This document shows, one piece after another, positions 11,455 to 18,123 of a stretch of 64,000 nt of DNA. The stretch spans positions 2,976,001 through 3,040,000 of the forward strand of contig NZ_AP023396.1 in NCBI RefSeq assembly GCF_014466955.1, in the 5' to 3' direction. Both the position numbers and the translations under genes were made by a program. The number at the start of each line of letters is the position of its first letter. Position 1 is the first letter of the stretch. A model generated the notes under the pieces. The model worked only from the letters and a program-made list of their open reading frames with translations. It searched no databases and was not told the DNA's origin. This stretch comes from Nocardia wallacei (GTDB taxonomy: Bacteria > Actinomycetota > Actinomycetes > Mycobacteriales > Mycobacteriaceae).

Positions 11455-11509
11455 CGGGGCGAGGGGTCGTCACCCCGGACCACTGCCGGGCGGCTGCCGC
11501 CCACTATTG

Positions 11510-11527
11510 CATCAAACTCATTTGATG
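11510..11527. promoter_or_regulatory. ArsR-type operator
   Basis: CATCAAA-CTCA-TTTGATG is a perfect inverted repeat with 7-bp arms and a 4-bp spacer. This matches the ATCAA/TTGAT type of ArsR/SmtB operator. It ends 12 bp before the GTG start chosen for the ArsR-fusion gene, so it would block that gene's own promoter. Confidence 0.7.
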
Positions 11528-11539
11528 TATTCTGCTCGG

Positions 11540-12268
11540 GTGGCAACCCAGACCCGAGTACCGGTGCCGCTGCTCATGCGGATGGCGGCGCATCCGTTGC
11601 GCTGGGCGCTGATGACCGAGCTGGCGCCCAGTGATCGACGGGTGCGGGAGCTGGTCGCCGCGGTCGACGAGCCGCAGAACTTGGTGTCCTATCACCTGCG
11701 GTTGTTGCGCACGGCCGGGTTGGTGACGATGCGGCGCAGTAGTTTCGACGGTCGCGACAGCTACTACCACCTCGATTTGGCTCGGTGCGCAACGGCATTC
11801 GGTGAGGCGGCGGCTGCTCTGCACCCGATGCTGGCAGCGGCCGAGCGCCGGTGGCCGAAAGGCAGGTCGGTGTTGTTCCTGTGCACCGGAAACGGCGCGC
11901 GCTCACCGATGGCCGAGGCGCTGCTGCGGCGTCGCAGTGGCGGACGCGTCGAGGTGACCAGTGCGGGCAGCCATCCCAAGCCCGCTATGCACCCGAATAC
12001 CGGCCGAGTTCTGCGCGAGCACTTCGGCATCGAGTTCGAGCCCCGGCGGCCGCAGTCGCTGGAGGTGATCGCGGGCCGCCCCTTCGATGTCGTGATCACG
12101 CTGTGCGACAAGATCCGCGAGGTCCCTCGGGATCACGGAGCGGCGATCACGGCGCATTGGAGCCTGCCGGACCCGGCCGCCGCGGCCGCGACCGAGCAGG
12201 CGACGTATCCGGAATTCCGCCGTGTCGCAACCGAACTCGACACTCGCATCGGGTTCCTGGCTCTGTAG
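11540..12268 (+). CDS. ArsR regulator fused to LMW phosphatase/arsenate reductase
   Basis: This 242-residue two-domain protein has an ArsR-type winged helix at residues 1-95 (recognition helix around QNLVSYHLRLLRTAGLV). Its low-molecular-weight phosphatase/arsenate-reductase domain spans about 108-240. The phosphatase loop is intact, C-x5-R-S in CTGNGARS with Cys near 115, and the general-acid Asp is in LPDPA. The usual ELCVCDL metal-binding cysteines of ArsR are absent from the DNA-binding domain. GTG 11540 was chosen because the upstream ATG at 11525 and TTG at 11507 fall in or across the operator palindrome. It may sense and reduce arsenate or a related signal and repress itself. Confidence 0.85.
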   Translation: MATQTRVPVPLLMRMAAHPLRWALMTELAPSDRRVRELVAAVDEPQNLVSYHLRLLRTAGLVTMRRSSFDGRDSYYHLDLARCATAFGEAAAALHPMLAAAERRWPKGRSVLFLCTGNGARSPMAEALLRRRSGGRVEVTSAGSHPKPAMHPNTGRVLREHFGIEFEPRRPQSLEVIAGRPFDVVITLCDKIREVPRDHGAAITAHWSLPDPAAAAATEQATYPEFRRVATELDTRIGFLAL

Positions 12269-13587: not shown

Positions 13588-14901
13588 GTGAGCGAATCCG
13601 ACTTCGCCGAGGCGGAGCGCCCTGATGAGTCGGGCCGGTTGCCTCGCCGTCTCGGACTCGCCGACGCGGTGGTGATCGGGCTGGGCGCGATGCTCGGCGC
13701 CGGGATCTTCGCCGCTCTCGCCCCGGCCGCTCGGGCCGCGGGTTCGGGCCTGTTGATCGGCTTGGGCGTCGCGGCGGCGGTCGCGTATTGCAACGCCACC
13801 TCGTCGGCGCGGCTGGCCGCTCGCTACCCGGACTCGGGCGGGACCTACGTCTACGGGCGCGAACGGCTCGGTGAGTTGTGGGGCTATCTGGCGGGTTGGG
13901 CATTCGTGGTCGGTAAGACCGCGTCCTGCGCGGCCATGGCGCTGACCGTCGGAATCTACGCCTGGCCCGAGTATGCGCACGCGGTCGCGGTCGTCTCGGT
14001 GGCCGGGCTGACGGCCGTCAACTATGTGGGAGTGCGCAAGTCGGCCTGGCTGACCCGCGGCATCGTCGCGGTGGTGCTGGTCGTCCTTGCCGCCGTGGTC
14101 GTTGCCGCGTTCGGCTCGGCCGACACCGACGGCGCCCGCCTGGAACCAGGGTCCGACGTCACCGTGGCAGGCGTGCTGCAGGCGGCCGGGCTGCTCTTCT
14201 TCGCATTCGCCGGCTACGCCCGCATCGCCACGCTCGGTGAAGAGGTGCGCGATCCGGCCCGCACGATTCCGCGCGCGATCCCGCTCGCCCTCGCCGTCAC
14301 CCTGGTGGTGTACGCGGTCGTCGCGGTCGCTGCCCTGTTCGTGCTGGGGCCGGGCCGGTTGGCCGCGGCGGCGGCGCCCCTGTCGAGCGTGGTCCGCGCC
14401 GCCGGTGCGGGCTGGCTGGAGCCGGTCGTGCGGGCCGGTGCCGCGGTGGCGGCGCTGGGGTCGCTGCTGGCGCTGATCCTCGGTGTCTCGCGCACCACCC
14501 TGGCCATGGCCCGCGACCGCCACCTGCCGCGCGCGCTGGCGGCGGTCCATCCCCGATTCGGTGTGCCGCACCGCGCCGAGTCGGCCGTCGGGGTGGTCGT
14601 CGCCGCGGTGGCCGCCGTAGCCGATGTGCGCGCGGCAATCGGATTCTCCTCCTTCGGCGTACTGCTCTACTACGCCATAGCCAACGCCTCCGCGTACACC
14701 CTCACCCCCGCCGAGGGCCGCCCACCGCGTGTGATACCGATGCTGGGCCTGATCGGTTGTCTCGCATTGGCTTTCACTCTGCCGCTGACCGCGGTGGCGG
14801 CCGGCGCGGCGGTGCTGACGGCCGGAGCCGCCGTGTACGCACTCCGGCAACGCGCCGCACATCGGTCGGAGGACAACGCGGCCGACGCGAGGACGTGCTG
14901 A
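13588..14901 (+). CDS. APC-superfamily amino acid/polyamine permease
   Basis: This is a 437-residue permease with about 12 membrane segments. The first, LADAVVIGLGAMLGAGIFA (residues 24-42), is the typical APC TM1 with the unwound GAGIF substrate motif. FFAFAGYARIATLGEEVRDP near 210-230 is the conserved TM6-loop signature. It transports amino acids or amines across the membrane by cation or antiport coupling. The start is GTG 13588 behind GGGAGGACACGG. It ends convergent to the cofilin-like gene. Confidence 0.88.
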   Translation: MSESDFAEAERPDESGRLPRRLGLADAVVIGLGAMLGAGIFAALAPAARAAGSGLLIGLGVAAAVAYCNATSSARLAARYPDSGGTYVYGRERLGELWGYLAGWAFVVGKTASCAAMALTVGIYAWPEYAHAVAVVSVAGLTAVNYVGVRKSAWLTRGIVAVVLVVLAAVVVAAFGSADTDGARLEPGSDVTVAGVLQAAGLLFFAFAGYARIATLGEEVRDPARTIPRAIPLALAVTLVVYAVVAVAALFVLGPGRLAAAAAPLSSVVRAAGAGWLEPVVRAGAAVAALGSLLALILGVSRTTLAMARDRHLPRALAAVHPRFGVPHRAESAVGVVVAAVAAVADVRAAIGFSSFGVLLYYAIANASAYTLTPAEGRPPRVIPMLGLIGCLALAFTLPLTAVAAGAAVLTAGAAVYALRQRAAHRSEDNAADARTC

Positions 14902-14943: not shown

Positions 14944-15381
14944 TCAGTTGTCGAATTGGCGGTTGACCTCGGCCAGCACCGTTTCATAGGCCATGTCGGC
15001 ATAGGAGGTCGCTTCCATCACCGCCAAGCCTCTGACCCTGCTCGACAACAATTTTTCTTCCACCGTGGTGATCAGCGCGTCCTTGTCGAAGTAGTAGGCC
15101 ACCTTGGTCTTGTCCGACGCTCCGGCAGGTAACCACGTGATCAAGCAGAACCGACACGTTCGTCCGTCGGGCGATTCATCCCGGAAGTTGTACAGCGCCC
15201 AGCGACAGGTGGAGTCCGGGAGATCTGCGAGGAGCGCGGCATAGCCTTGGCCCCAGTGGTATCCGGACCGGGTCAGTACAGGTTTGATCGCCTTCTCGTT
15301 GCGCGAGAGTTCGAGGAGCGAGTATCCGGACCCCCTGAGCAGCAGCAGGTCGGCCAAGACCGCCTCACACTCGATCTTCAT
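14944..15381 (-). CDS. ADF/cofilin-like protein
   Basis: This 145-residue protein matches the actin-depolymerising-factor homology fold from end to end. Residues 8-25 (VLADLLLLRGSGYSLLEL) align with the cofilin N-terminal helix and first strand, and 47-65 (YAALLADLPDSTCRWALYN) with the cofilin F-L-x-x-L-P-x-x-D-C-R-Y-A-L/I-Y-D block. Residues 80-88 (LITWLPAGA) align with the F-x-W-x-P-x-x-A strand, and 91-107 (KTKVAYYFDKDALITTV) with the long actin-binding helix of the SKMxYASSKDAL type. I chose the ATG at 15381, with GGGAG 7 bp upstream; an ATG at 15411 with AGGAG 13 bp upstream would add ten residues. There is no signal peptide. ADF/cofilins are known mainly from eukaryotes. It is convergent with the permease and downstream of a MerR gene; cellular role unknown. 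Confidence 0.75.
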   Translation of the reverse strand: MKIECEAVLADLLLLRGSGYSLLELSRNEKAIKPVLTRSGYHWGQGYAALLADLPDSTCRWALYNFRDESPDGRTCRFCLITWLPAGASDKTKVAYYFDKDALITTVEEKLLSSRVRGLAVMEATSYADMAYETVLAEVNRQFDN

Positions 15382-15472
15382 GTGTCGGCTCCCGTCCCGA
15401 GTGGACAGCATCGATCATACTGTGCTCCTGCTGCACGAATAGCGCTCTGCCCCAGTGGTATCAGGTAGGGCG

Positions 15473-15907
15473 TCAACGGCCTTCGCGGGACCGCGTCGTT
15501 TGTCCGGCGGCGAGGGTTTCGGCGTGTGCGCGCAGGATGCGGTGGTGTTCGGGACAGTGGTCGAGCCGGTCGTGTCGACAGTCGAGCAAGTGCCGCAGCA
15601 CATGTTGCGCCTGCCGGATCTGCGCGAGCTGCTCATCCAGCTCGCGCAGTTTGGCCGAGGACAGTGCGCGCCAATCGTTTCGGCTTTCCACCGCCGGTGC
15701 GACGAACACCGCGATCTCCGACAGCGTGAACCCGGCCGACTTGAGCAGATCGATGAACGCGATTCGTTCCACCGCGTCCGCGTCGTAGCACCTTTGGCCG
15801 CCGGTCCGCCCGGAGGAGCGCAACAGACCTTTGCGCTCGTAGAAGCGTAGGGCCGAGGACGCCAGTCCCGTGCGTGCCCGCAATTCCGATATCGATAACT
15901 TGCCCAT
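15473..15907 (-). CDS. MerR-family transcriptional regulator
   Basis: This is a 144-residue MerR regulator: an N-terminal winged helix with LSISELRARTGLASSALRFYERKGLL, a GGQRCYDADAVERIAFIDLLKSAGFTLSEI second helix region, and a dimerisation coiled coil around residues 80-110. The tail LLDCRHDRLDHCPEHHRIL holds two Cys and several His that might bind metal or sense redox state. The longer open frame upstream was rejected because the start at 15907 sits directly beside the operator palindrome. It is divergent from the SDR gene at 15985, its likely target. Confidence 0.85.
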   Translation of the reverse strand: MGKLSISELRARTGLASSALRFYERKGLLRSSGRTGGQRCYDADAVERIAFIDLLKSAGFTLSEIAVFVAPAVESRNDWRALSSAKLRELDEQLAQIRQAQHVLRHLLDCRHDRLDHCPEHHRILRAHAETLAAGQTTRSREGR

Positions 15908-15937
15908 TGACTTGAACCGTAGTTCAACCCGGATGCT
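15907..15937 (+). promoter_or_regulatory. MerR-type operator/promoter for the SDR gene
   Basis: TTGAAC-CGTA-GTTCAA (15912-15927) is a perfect inverted repeat with 6-bp arms. It directly follows a -35-like TTGACT at 15907-15912, and a weak -10 (GATGCT) lies about 19 bp further on. A palindrome inside an over-long spacer is characteristic of MerR-activated promoters. Confidence 0.6.
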
Positions 15938-15984
15938 GACGGAGGACGTCGGAGCGACCGACGCCGAAGGACGAGGAGGAGCCG

Positions 15985-16758
15985 GTGGCAGACACAGCAC
16001 GCGTGGCGGTGGTGACCGGGGCGGGCCGCGGTATCGGGTTGGCGATCGTGCGCGCTCTGGTGGACGACGGCTTCGTCGTGGTGGCCGGTAGTCGCACGAT
16101 CACGACGCCGCTGCGGTCGGCGACCAGCGACGTGGTCGAAGTGGACCTGACGACCGCCGCCGGGCCCGCCCATCTCGTCCAGCACGCGCTCGACCGCCAC
16201 GGCGGCATCGACCTTCTCGTGAACAATGTCGCGGGCACGTCGACCCCGCCGGGCGGATTCCTCGCCCTCGACGACGACGCCTGGCGGTACACCCTCGACG
16301 CGACGGTCATGCCGACTGTTCGCGCGACGCGGGCGGCGCTGCCGGCGCTGCTCGAGCGCAGCGGCGCGATCGTCAACATCAGCTCGGTCAACGCCAGGAT
16401 GCCGCAGCCGCGTTTGGTCGCGCAGTCGGCGGCGAAGGCCGCGGTATCGAACCTCGGTAAGGCGCTCGCCGAGGAGTTCGGCGCTCAGGGACTGCGCGTC
16501 AACACGATCTCGCCCGGCCCGGTACTCACCGATCTGTGGACGACGCCCGGCGGACCGGGCGACATCCTGGCCCGGAAAGCCGGTGTCCCGCAGGACCTCA
16601 TCGTTGAGCGACTGCCGTCGATACTCGGCATGTCTACCGGCCGATTCACCACCCCCGACGAGGTCGCCGCACTCGTCGTCTTTCTCGTCTCGGGCAAGGC
16701 GTCGAACCTGAGCGGAGCGGACCTGGTGATCGACGGCGGCATGCTGAAGGCATTGTGA
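15985..16758 (+). CDS. Short-chain dehydrogenase/reductase
   Basis: This is a 257-residue SDR with TGAGRGIG near residues 11-18, NNVAG near 79, ISSVNA with the catalytic Ser and a C-terminal LSGADLVIDGGM. At the usual Y-x3-K position it reads VAQSAAKAAV, so the catalytic Tyr is replaced (AQSAAK) while the Lys is kept; activity may be altered. The start is GTG 15985 behind GAGGAGGAGCC. It is divergent from the MerR regulator, which probably controls it. Confidence 0.83.
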   Translation: MADTARVAVVTGAGRGIGLAIVRALVDDGFVVVAGSRTITTPLRSATSDVVEVDLTTAAGPAHLVQHALDRHGGIDLLVNNVAGTSTPPGGFLALDDDAWRYTLDATVMPTVRATRAALPALLERSGAIVNISSVNARMPQPRLVAQSAAKAAVSNLGKALAEEFGAQGLRVNTISPGPVLTDLWTTPGGPGDILARKAGVPQDLIVERLPSILGMSTGRFTTPDEVAALVVFLVSGKASNLSGADLVIDGGMLKAL

Positions 16759-16807
16759 GCAGGACGAGTCGGCCGAGAATGTTCCTCTCGCATATGGAGA
16801 AGATTAG

Positions 16808-16829
16808 TTGCAACAGCATATTATTGCAT
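16808..16829. promoter_or_regulatory. Possible operator/promoter before P450
   Basis: TTGCAA and TTGCAT at the two ends form an imperfect inverted repeat, and a TATTAT -10-like hexamer lies inside it, 97-102 bp upstream of the P450 start. The local AT-richness stands out against the GC-rich surroundings. The arms are short, so this is only a candidate. Confidence 0.3.
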
Positions 16830-16920
16830 TTACACTGAGATCACTTACCCCGAGGGCTCGGTGTCGGCTGAATCGTCCGCGAACCGAGAACGATGTAGTT
16901 CCTGCGAGAGGTGAATCTCT

Positions 16921-18123
16921 GTGACCACCAGCGCGGCCAGCGACGTCTACTACGATCCGTACGACGTCCGGCTCAATGCCGACCCCTACCCGATGTTCAA
17001 GCGGATTCGCGACGAGGTGCCCGTCTACTACAACGAGCAGCACGATTTCTACGCGTTGAGCCGCTGGCGGGACGTCAATGCCGCGCTGCTGGACCACAAG
17101 ACCTACAGTTCCGCGCGTGGCGCGATCATCGAGCTGATCAAGGCCGACATCACGATGCCGCCGGGCGTGCTGATCTTCGAGGACCCGCCGATCCACGACA
17201 TTCACCGGAAACTGTTGTCGCGCATGTTCACTCCGCGCAAGATTCGCGAACTCGAGGACAAGATCCGCGAGTTCTGCGCGCGCAGCCTGGATCCGCACGT
17301 GGGCACGGGCCGCCTGGACTTCATCGCCGACATCGGCGCGCAGATGCCGATGCGCACCATCGGCATGCTGCTCGGCATCCCGGAAGAGGACCAGGAAGCC
17401 ATCCGCGACTTCGCGAACGAGCAGATGCGCACCGAGGAGGGCAAGCCGATGAAGGCCGCCGAGGAGGGCATCGTCGGCGGCGACATCTTCGGCGCCTATA
17501 TCGACTGGCGCGCCGAGCACCCCTCCGACGACATCATGACCGAACTGCTCAACGTCGAGTTCGAGGACGAGACGGGCACGCTGCGGCGCTTGTCTCGCGA
17601 CGAGCTGCTGACCTACGTGAACGTGGTGTCCGGTGCGGGCAACGAGACCACGACGCGGCTGATCGGCTGGGCGGGCAAGGTGCTCGCCGAACACCCCGAC
17701 CAGCGGGCCGAATTGGTCGAGAACCCGCGGCTCATCCCCAACGCGGTCGAGGAACTGCTCCGATTCGAGCCGCCCGCACCGCATGTCGCGCGCTACGTCA
17801 CCCGCGACGTCGAGATACACGGCCGGACGGTGCCGCAGGGCAGCGCCATGATGCTGCTCATCGGCGCCGCCAACCGCGACGAACGCCAATTCCCGCCCGA
17901 CGGTGACGTTTTCGACATCCACCGCGACACCCGCCAGCACCTGACCTTCAGCGTCGGCACCCACTACTGCCTGGGTTCCGCCCTGGCCCGCCTCGAGGGC
18001 CGCATCGCCCTGGAGGAAATCCTGGCCCGCTTCCCACGCTGGGAGGTGGACCTCGACAACGCCAAACTCTCGCCCACCTCCACCGTGCGCGGCTGGGAAA
18101 CCTTGCCCGCCACCACTTCCTGA
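16921..18123 (+). CDS. Cytochrome P450
   Basis: This 400-residue P450 has the I-helix VSGAGNETTTR near residue 236, the K-helix E-L-L-R near 277 and the heme loop FSVGTHYCLGSALARLEG with the Cys ligand near 350. The style resembles mycobacterial CYP enzymes of lipid and steroid metabolism (CYP125/142-like region), but the exact family needs a comparison. No ferredoxin is adjacent; it may use the partners at 8776 and 10013. The start is GTG 16921 after GAGAGGTGAATCTCT. It appears monocistronic. Confidence 0.9.
   Translation: MTTSAASDVYYDPYDVRLNADPYPMFKRIRDEVPVYYNEQHDFYALSRWRDVNAALLDHKTYSSARGAIIELIKADITMPPGVLIFEDPPIHDIHRKLLSRMFTPRKIRELEDKIREFCARSLDPHVGTGRLDFIADIGAQMPMRTIGMLLGIPEEDQEAIRDFANEQMRTEEGKPMKAAEEGIVGGDIFGAYIDWRAEHPSDDIMTELLNVEFEDETGTLRRLSRDELLTYVNVVSGAGNETTTRLIGWAGKVLAEHPDQRAELVENPRLIPNAVEELLRFEPPAPHVARYVTRDVEIHGRTVPQGSAMMLLIGAANRDERQFPPDGDVFDIHRDTRQHLTFSVGTHYCLGSALARLEGRIALEEILARFPRWEVDLDNAKLSPTSTVRGWETLPATTS

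Follow-up and report, generated by a model that had tools for sequence, protein, structure and literature searches.

The 64,000-nt stretch of Nocardia wallacei DNA analysed here (the window; contig NZ_AP023396.1, positions 2,976,001 to 3,040,000) carries on its minus strand a gene of the ADF-H family, and it is close to certain that the encoded protein has the ADF-H fold and is an ADF/cofilin homologue. Its cofilin function is putative. In eukaryotes, cofilin is one of the central regulators of actin. Taken together with its relatives, the gene points to repeated capture of cofilin-type genes by Nocardia from fungi and water moulds. As a whole, the explanation we favour, tentatively and at somewhat under an even chance, is that of a captured and kept monomer-binding ADF-H protein which would meet eukaryotic actin.

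An earlier interpretation made without database searches (the sequence-only reading) had described a 145-residue minus-strand protein with the motif blocks of cofilin. The open reading frame (15381..14944) is indeed intact from ATG to stop, and the blocks are real in phmmer alignments. A Pfam profile search and a fold comparison had been suggested as checks. In the former, PF00241 (Cofilin_ADF) matches with a score of 52.1 bits (E 6.8e-14), the cut-off being 22.4, with residues 18-137 of the protein lying on positions 15-124 of the 125 in the profile, and it is the sole family listed in a Pfam scan at E up to 10. In the latter, the AlphaFold2 model has the complete ADF-H fold, with a central sheet, helices on both sides and a long helix alpha-3. 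The match and the fold, whose absence would have refuted the interpretation, were both found. Among PDB sequences, cofilins and actophorin come out at the top in phmmer (best E 6.4e-10). Foldseek gives the cofilin of Streptomyces griseoflavus (5IVU; E 5.7e-10, 28% identity) as the best match of the model, so that by sequence and by fold alike the first PDB match is a bacterial protein. Chance was controlled for in two ways. A profile of eukaryotic ADF sequences matched one of the 571 stop-to-stop frames of the window (E up to 10), namely this gene (46.9 bits), and shuffling the protein 1000 times gave 7.0 bits at best. The protein had no match in NCBIfam and a weak one alone in PHROGs (E 0.022).

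The N. wallacei protein is not the first bacterial cofilin. The premise that ADF/cofilin proteins belong mainly to eukaryotes, with relatives in Asgard archaea, had overlooked the bacterial ones on record: the cofilin entry of a 2009 table reads 'A homolog only in Streptomyces' and 'probable HGT' (horizontal gene transfer; PMC2651865), and PDB 5IVU (2017) is a crystal structure of the S. griseoflavus protein. The latter, like the N. wallacei protein, is bacterial and has a single ADF-H domain. Unlike it, 5IVU is close to fungal cofilins, being identical to that of Macrolepiota at 93 of 134 positions (a weak fork in the tree).

In the profile search, PF00241 was found in eight of the 150 Nocardia genomes, in nine genes. 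It was also found in one of 397 genomes of the order and one of 396 of the phylum (N. wallacei alone in both) and in two of 394 of the class (N. wallacei and genome G786); these draws contain some Nocardia and overlap, and are thus not independent samples. Within the family of G786 (f31), four of 250 genomes have it. A tblastn search with the protein gave no match among 50,697 phage and 72,556 plasmid records. Contamination was considered and ruled out, as the genes include ones on contigs of 7.83 Mb (that of the window, from a 7.89-Mb assembly rated 100% complete) and 10.36 Mb, and the nine Nocardia frames have a GC content at third codon positions of 0.73-0.86 and no internal stops. One further candidate, on a Planctomycetota contig (L010), was dismissed as due to chance, its frame being dissimilar apart from a stretch that reads CRFCLITW.

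Three f31 genomes of one genus (G786 twice, G1008 and G1020) encode proteins in which two ADF-H domains stand in tandem, an architecture like that of twinfilin (L024 7180-8208 (+), L023 7645-8739 (+), L046 6531-7949 (+), L047 7096-5942 (-)). The fourth, G946, has a single ADF-H gene (L048 6327-6944 (+)) directly after another gene, presumably an FxsB-type radical-SAM enzyme, judged by eye.

The ADF-H genes of Nocardia are of different kinds. Type A comprises ten sequences, seven from Nocardia genomes (G113, G007, G143, P0004, P0006, P0007, P0010) and three assigned by likeness (P0005, P0008, P0009); the three members compared are identical to their best oomycete match at 96/142, 94/143 and 93/143 positions (65-68%). 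They form one clade (100/99), sister to seven oomycete and two unnamed sequences (91/88; 92/85 in a second tree). Type B, in G044, is identical to the cofilin of the fungus Dipsacomyces at 84 of 137 positions (61%) and adjoins a DDE transposase gene. It stands next to Coemansia in two trees (99/88; 98/87), and not in the tree that includes the tandem sequences. Type C, with seven sequences (P0121-P0127) from N. aurea, N. noduli, N. takedensis and unnamed sources, is very divergent and again one clade (100/99). NCBI names type A 'actin-binding ADF family protein', 'actin depolymerization factor/cofilin-like domain-containing protein' or 'cofilin', and the five named type C members 'hypothetical protein'. 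The protein of G114 (L021 8035-7598 (-)) is of a further kind, as its nearest PDB matches are not cofilins but a drebrin-like protein (E 3.5e-5) and coactosins (E 0.0002-0.013). That of G028 has a weak yet above-threshold PF00241 match (27.2 bits). A profile of the N. wallacei protein and type C found seven of 148 Nocardia genomes, all known carriers, G114 not being among them. In N. aurea (G024), a two-gene unit of an ADF-H gene and a second gene is present in two copies (L019 6688-8302, L020 7255-8629); the second gene is about 85% identical between them, and a Pfam scan of one copy gave no match.

A single origin of these genes was rejected by the approximately unbiased (AU) test, for one clade of types A and B (11 sequences; p 0.0005) as well as for one clade of A, B, C and the N. 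wallacei protein (19 Nocardia-type sequences; p-AU 0.0011), the clades having been chosen after the tree was seen and the G114 and G028 proteins standing outside the trees. Of the 1134 relatives found, 119 were listed, and 71 of these entered the trees, with the 78-residue P0128 left out; the groups in the trees rest on the listed organism names, among which none is animal, plant or amoebozoan. Since a single origin is rejected and the genes differ in kind, Nocardia captured such genes on two separate occasions at the least, and probably on more, besides the Streptomyces case.

The N. wallacei protein itself is harder to place. It joins type C in the trees (99/88 with two type C sequences, 95/77 in the larger tree), both branches are long, and the tree program warns of such joins. 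All seven type C sequences share with the protein the motifs CRW and ITWLP as well as a basic residue at K93, and they fall on the same side of the branch; unlike the protein, type C has a shorter F-loop and C-terminal helix and no extension of alpha-3. In a tree without type C, the protein stands beside fungal and unnamed sequences with no support, and in the one with tandem sequences beside their second domains (79/85). Its pairwise scores are highest with fungi (mean 136.5 over 29 sequences; best 170, equalled by one unnamed sequence), followed by ochrophytes (best 134, mean 100 over five) and, as best scores, type C (122), the tandem sequences (106), type A (84) and oomycetes (74). The single type B and S. 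griseoflavus sequences lie outside its top 15, the lowest score of which is 145. As it scores higher with fungi, the joining with type C may be a long-branch effect. The protein is probably an ADF-H protein of fungal type that has changed too much to be placed safely. The horizontal acquisition proposed in the sequence-only reading is therefore borne out for the genus, where different kinds occur and a single origin is rejected; for this gene, the pairwise scores and the unsupported long-branch placement only suggest a fungal-type origin. That it is of eukaryotic origin at all is very likely.

Neutral acquisition on the way to decay would fit the patchy presence of these genes, their variable genomic site, the long branch of the protein and a short repeat-associated stretch inside its gene. 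We regard this as improbable, because the frame is intact, the 90%-identity cluster of the protein holds two sequences on 14 contigs, and two other Nocardia kinds show purifying selection: the ratios of nonsynonymous to synonymous substitution rates (Nei-Gojobori) are 0.28, 0.25 and 0.16 for three type A pairs and 0.18 between the G024 copies. The tandem genes of G786, a single pair, give 0.49.

The residues of the actin-binding sites were compared by aligning the protein with yeast cofilin, whose numbering is used for R80, K82, R96, K98, R135 and R138. For yeast cofilin, the relevant part of one paper (PMC3541276) assigns R96/K98 and the N-terminus to the binding of monomeric (G-) actin, where the first five residues are essential, and R80, K82, R135 and R138 to that of filamentous (F-) actin. 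The basic pair of the G/F site is retained in the N. wallacei protein, as K91 and K93. It is also present in all ten type A sequences, in that of type B and in five of the seven of type C, the other two having M and T at the first place. At the F-site the protein has T, R, E and R, two of the four being basic (R77 at K82 and R141 at R138); 5IVU is basic at all four. In addition, A replaces E134, D101 corresponds to D106, and the arginines at 109 and 110 are lost, the protein having S/S there in one alignment and I/T in that of phmmer. The F-site pattern is not fixed in eukaryotes either, as an oomycete ADF sequence (P0011) has T, K, G and K. Compared with yeast cofilin (1COF/1CFY), the protein thus has the same fold, order of elements, G/F-site pair and C-terminal helix with R138, and differs by a shorter N-terminal segment, by replacements at R80, R109, R110 and R135 and by nine extra residues in the alpha-3 region, which are not present in the other aligned sequences shown. 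Since the G/F pair is kept and the F-site half lost, we infer that it would, if anything, bind actin monomers rather than decorate or sever filaments.

In the explanation we favour, the gene would have come to Nocardia from a eukaryotic donor, most probably a fungus-like one, and been retained. The target of the monomer-binding protein would be the actin of a eukaryote met by the bacterium, be it a phagocyte, an amoeba, a fungus or an oomycete, and would be reached by leaderless release or some secretion route. The chance that the protein binds eukaryotic actin may fall just short of even; its delivery to another cell is rather unlikely. Action on host actin is possible. A still wider scheme, in which Nocardia, itself without actin, takes up cofilin-type genes time and again (from fungi, oomycetes and perhaps other eukaryotes) and has their products act on the actin of eukaryotic neighbours, while the N. 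wallacei and type C proteins were domesticated, shedding filament binding and keeping monomer binding, would be unlikely.

Some observations speak against the favoured explanation and for a new use inside the bacterium, in which actin binding was lost and the protein has some other Nocardia protein or a lipid as its partner, with the adjacent MerR gene perhaps as its regulator. The F-site and N-terminus are eroded and the alpha-3 region is longer. No signal peptide (judged by eye) or export route was seen in the protein, and its last 40 residues, scanned for tags of type VII type, contain no YxxxD/E motif. Further, the protein and type C share CRW and, in all eight sequences, W-L-P, which occurs in four of nine of the tandem group; another letter follows the tryptophan in 64 of 64 eukaryotic or unnamed sequences, in nine matched type A sequences (one more did not fit the search pattern), in type B and in 5ivu. 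The MerR gene lies 91 nt upstream on the same strand. Yet the G/F-site pair is kept, and in G032 and G078 a matching stretch of MerR and short-chain dehydrogenase genes, away from the permease that flanks the site in the window, goes with no PF00241 match anywhere in the genome, so the pairing of MerR and ADF-H is not a fixed one. Such repurposing is quite conceivable, if on balance doubtful.

The sequence-only reading had also raised action on a bacterial actin homologue. As cofilins act on actin folds, the protein might regulate an actin-like filament of ParM/Alp type in the same cell. The four f31 carriers (G786, G1008, G1020, G946), three of them with tandem genes, have a full MreB (PF06723, about 500 bits), and in G786 the one PF00022 (actin) match lies inside the MreB gene. 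In the eight Nocardia carriers, and in four other Nocardia genomes tried, PF00022 had no match. PF06723 reached at most 65.4 bits in these carriers, in frames of 484-1020 residues and with no MreB-sized match; the best were in frames of 620-680 residues, which we take to be the size of DnaK. From these results, Nocardia shows no sign of an actin of its own, while in principle MreB could be met by the f31 proteins. The proposal is therefore disfavoured for the N. wallacei protein and seems highly improbable to us, though the models may miss plasmid-type actin-like proteins. A profilin search in the Nocardia carriers came back empty, but it had no positive control and says nothing firm.

The start of the gene may be one of two. 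An in-frame ATG at 15411 gives a form of 155 residues, and with this extension the N-terminus would approach eukaryotic length. The SGVAV segment of yeast is absent with the ATG at 15381, and the upstream one would add ten residues of other sequence. The shorter form is favoured, because GGGAG lies 7 nt ahead of its ATG. At 15418 (-) there is a frame of 17 codons whose ATG has AGGAG six bases ahead of it; this frame overlaps with the gene start and may be a leader or due to chance. A promoter scan at the gene found none, and one terminator-like site, against 0.6 expected, lies inside it. The GC content had been called lower than that of the neighbours; this holds (0.603 against 0.680 for the 3.4-kb locus), but it is not unusual there, as positions 16600-16999 have 0.583. 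A 17-nt direct repeat has one copy within the gene and one just upstream (Table 1), and its 14-nt core occurs genome-wide at these two places only. The inner copy may be a templated insertion, since the GYHWG it encodes falls where the protein is longer than its relatives.

Table 1. Positions in the window of the ADF-H gene, its parts and its neighbours
Feature	Position	Strand	Basis
ADF-H (cofilin-type) protein, 145 residues	14944..15381	-	translation; PF00241, 52.1 bits; AlphaFold2 model and fold searches
Possible N-terminal extension of 10 residues, from in-frame upstream ATG	15382..15411	-	list of open reading frames, alignment; inference
GGGAG, possible ribosome-binding site 7 nt before ATG 15381	15389..15393	-	by eye
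Codons of helix alpha-3 (model residues 90-113) with basic pair K91/K93	15043..15114	-	secondary structure, alignment
17-nt direct repeat, copy within the gene, encoding GYHWG	15250..15266	+	repeat search, translation
Second copy of the repeat (16/17), just upstream of the gene	15449..15465	+	repeat search
MerR-family regulator, 91 nt upstream of the ADF-H gene	15473..16000	-	open reading frame, Pfam, synteny
Short-chain dehydrogenase, divergent from the MerR gene	15985..16758	+	Pfam
Amino acid permease, convergent with the ADF-H gene; conserved, bounding the variable site on the left	13588..14901	+	Pfam; synteny

The gene sits in a variable slot, as shown by the nearest relative at the site, G146 (L041), and by the placing of the MerR and dehydrogenase stretch elsewhere in G032 and G078. 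In G146 the permease (87-91% DNA identity) and a P450 gene (93%) enclose LysR-like and transporter-like genes (by eye), where the window has the ADF-H, MerR and dehydrogenase genes; MerR, like ADF-H, is thus absent from this site there. No integrase or transposase was found by Pfam among ten window neighbours scanned. A blastp comparison of the open reading frames of ten neighbourhoods and part of the window revealed no shared operon partner. Recurrent but scattered matches were short-chain dehydrogenases and a RibD-type gene, along with genes of two-component and TetR type (by eye). Of all neighbours, just one stays beside ADF-H, namely the second gene of the unit present twice in G024. Elsewhere in the window (11507-12268 (+)), an ArsR-type helix-turn-helix is fused to a low-molecular-weight phosphatase domain (Pfam).

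The transfer of eukaryotic cytoskeletal genes to a bacterium has a parallel in Microcystis aeruginosa PCC 7806, for which an account of transferred eukaryote-type actin and profilin with altered properties is given in PMC3254629. There, actin and its binding protein came together, whereas the Nocardia carriers have no actin match. The earlier record that we found of bacterial cofilins consists of the one Streptomyces table entry (in PMC2651865) and the one crystal structure; the open-licence literature of PMC yielded no paper on a Nocardia cofilin, entry 5IVU or 'bacterial cofilin', which does not prove that none exists. The novelty seems to lie in the pattern of several ADF-H kinds across Nocardia, in carriers with no actin match.

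Cofilin-type genes in bacterial carriers in which neither actin nor MreB was detected make the role of an actin-binding fold a testable question. Should the N. wallacei protein have eukaryotic actin as its target, it would represent a novel class of actin-directed proteins from bacteria; should its action lie within Nocardia itself, an actin-binding fold would have been put to a different use.
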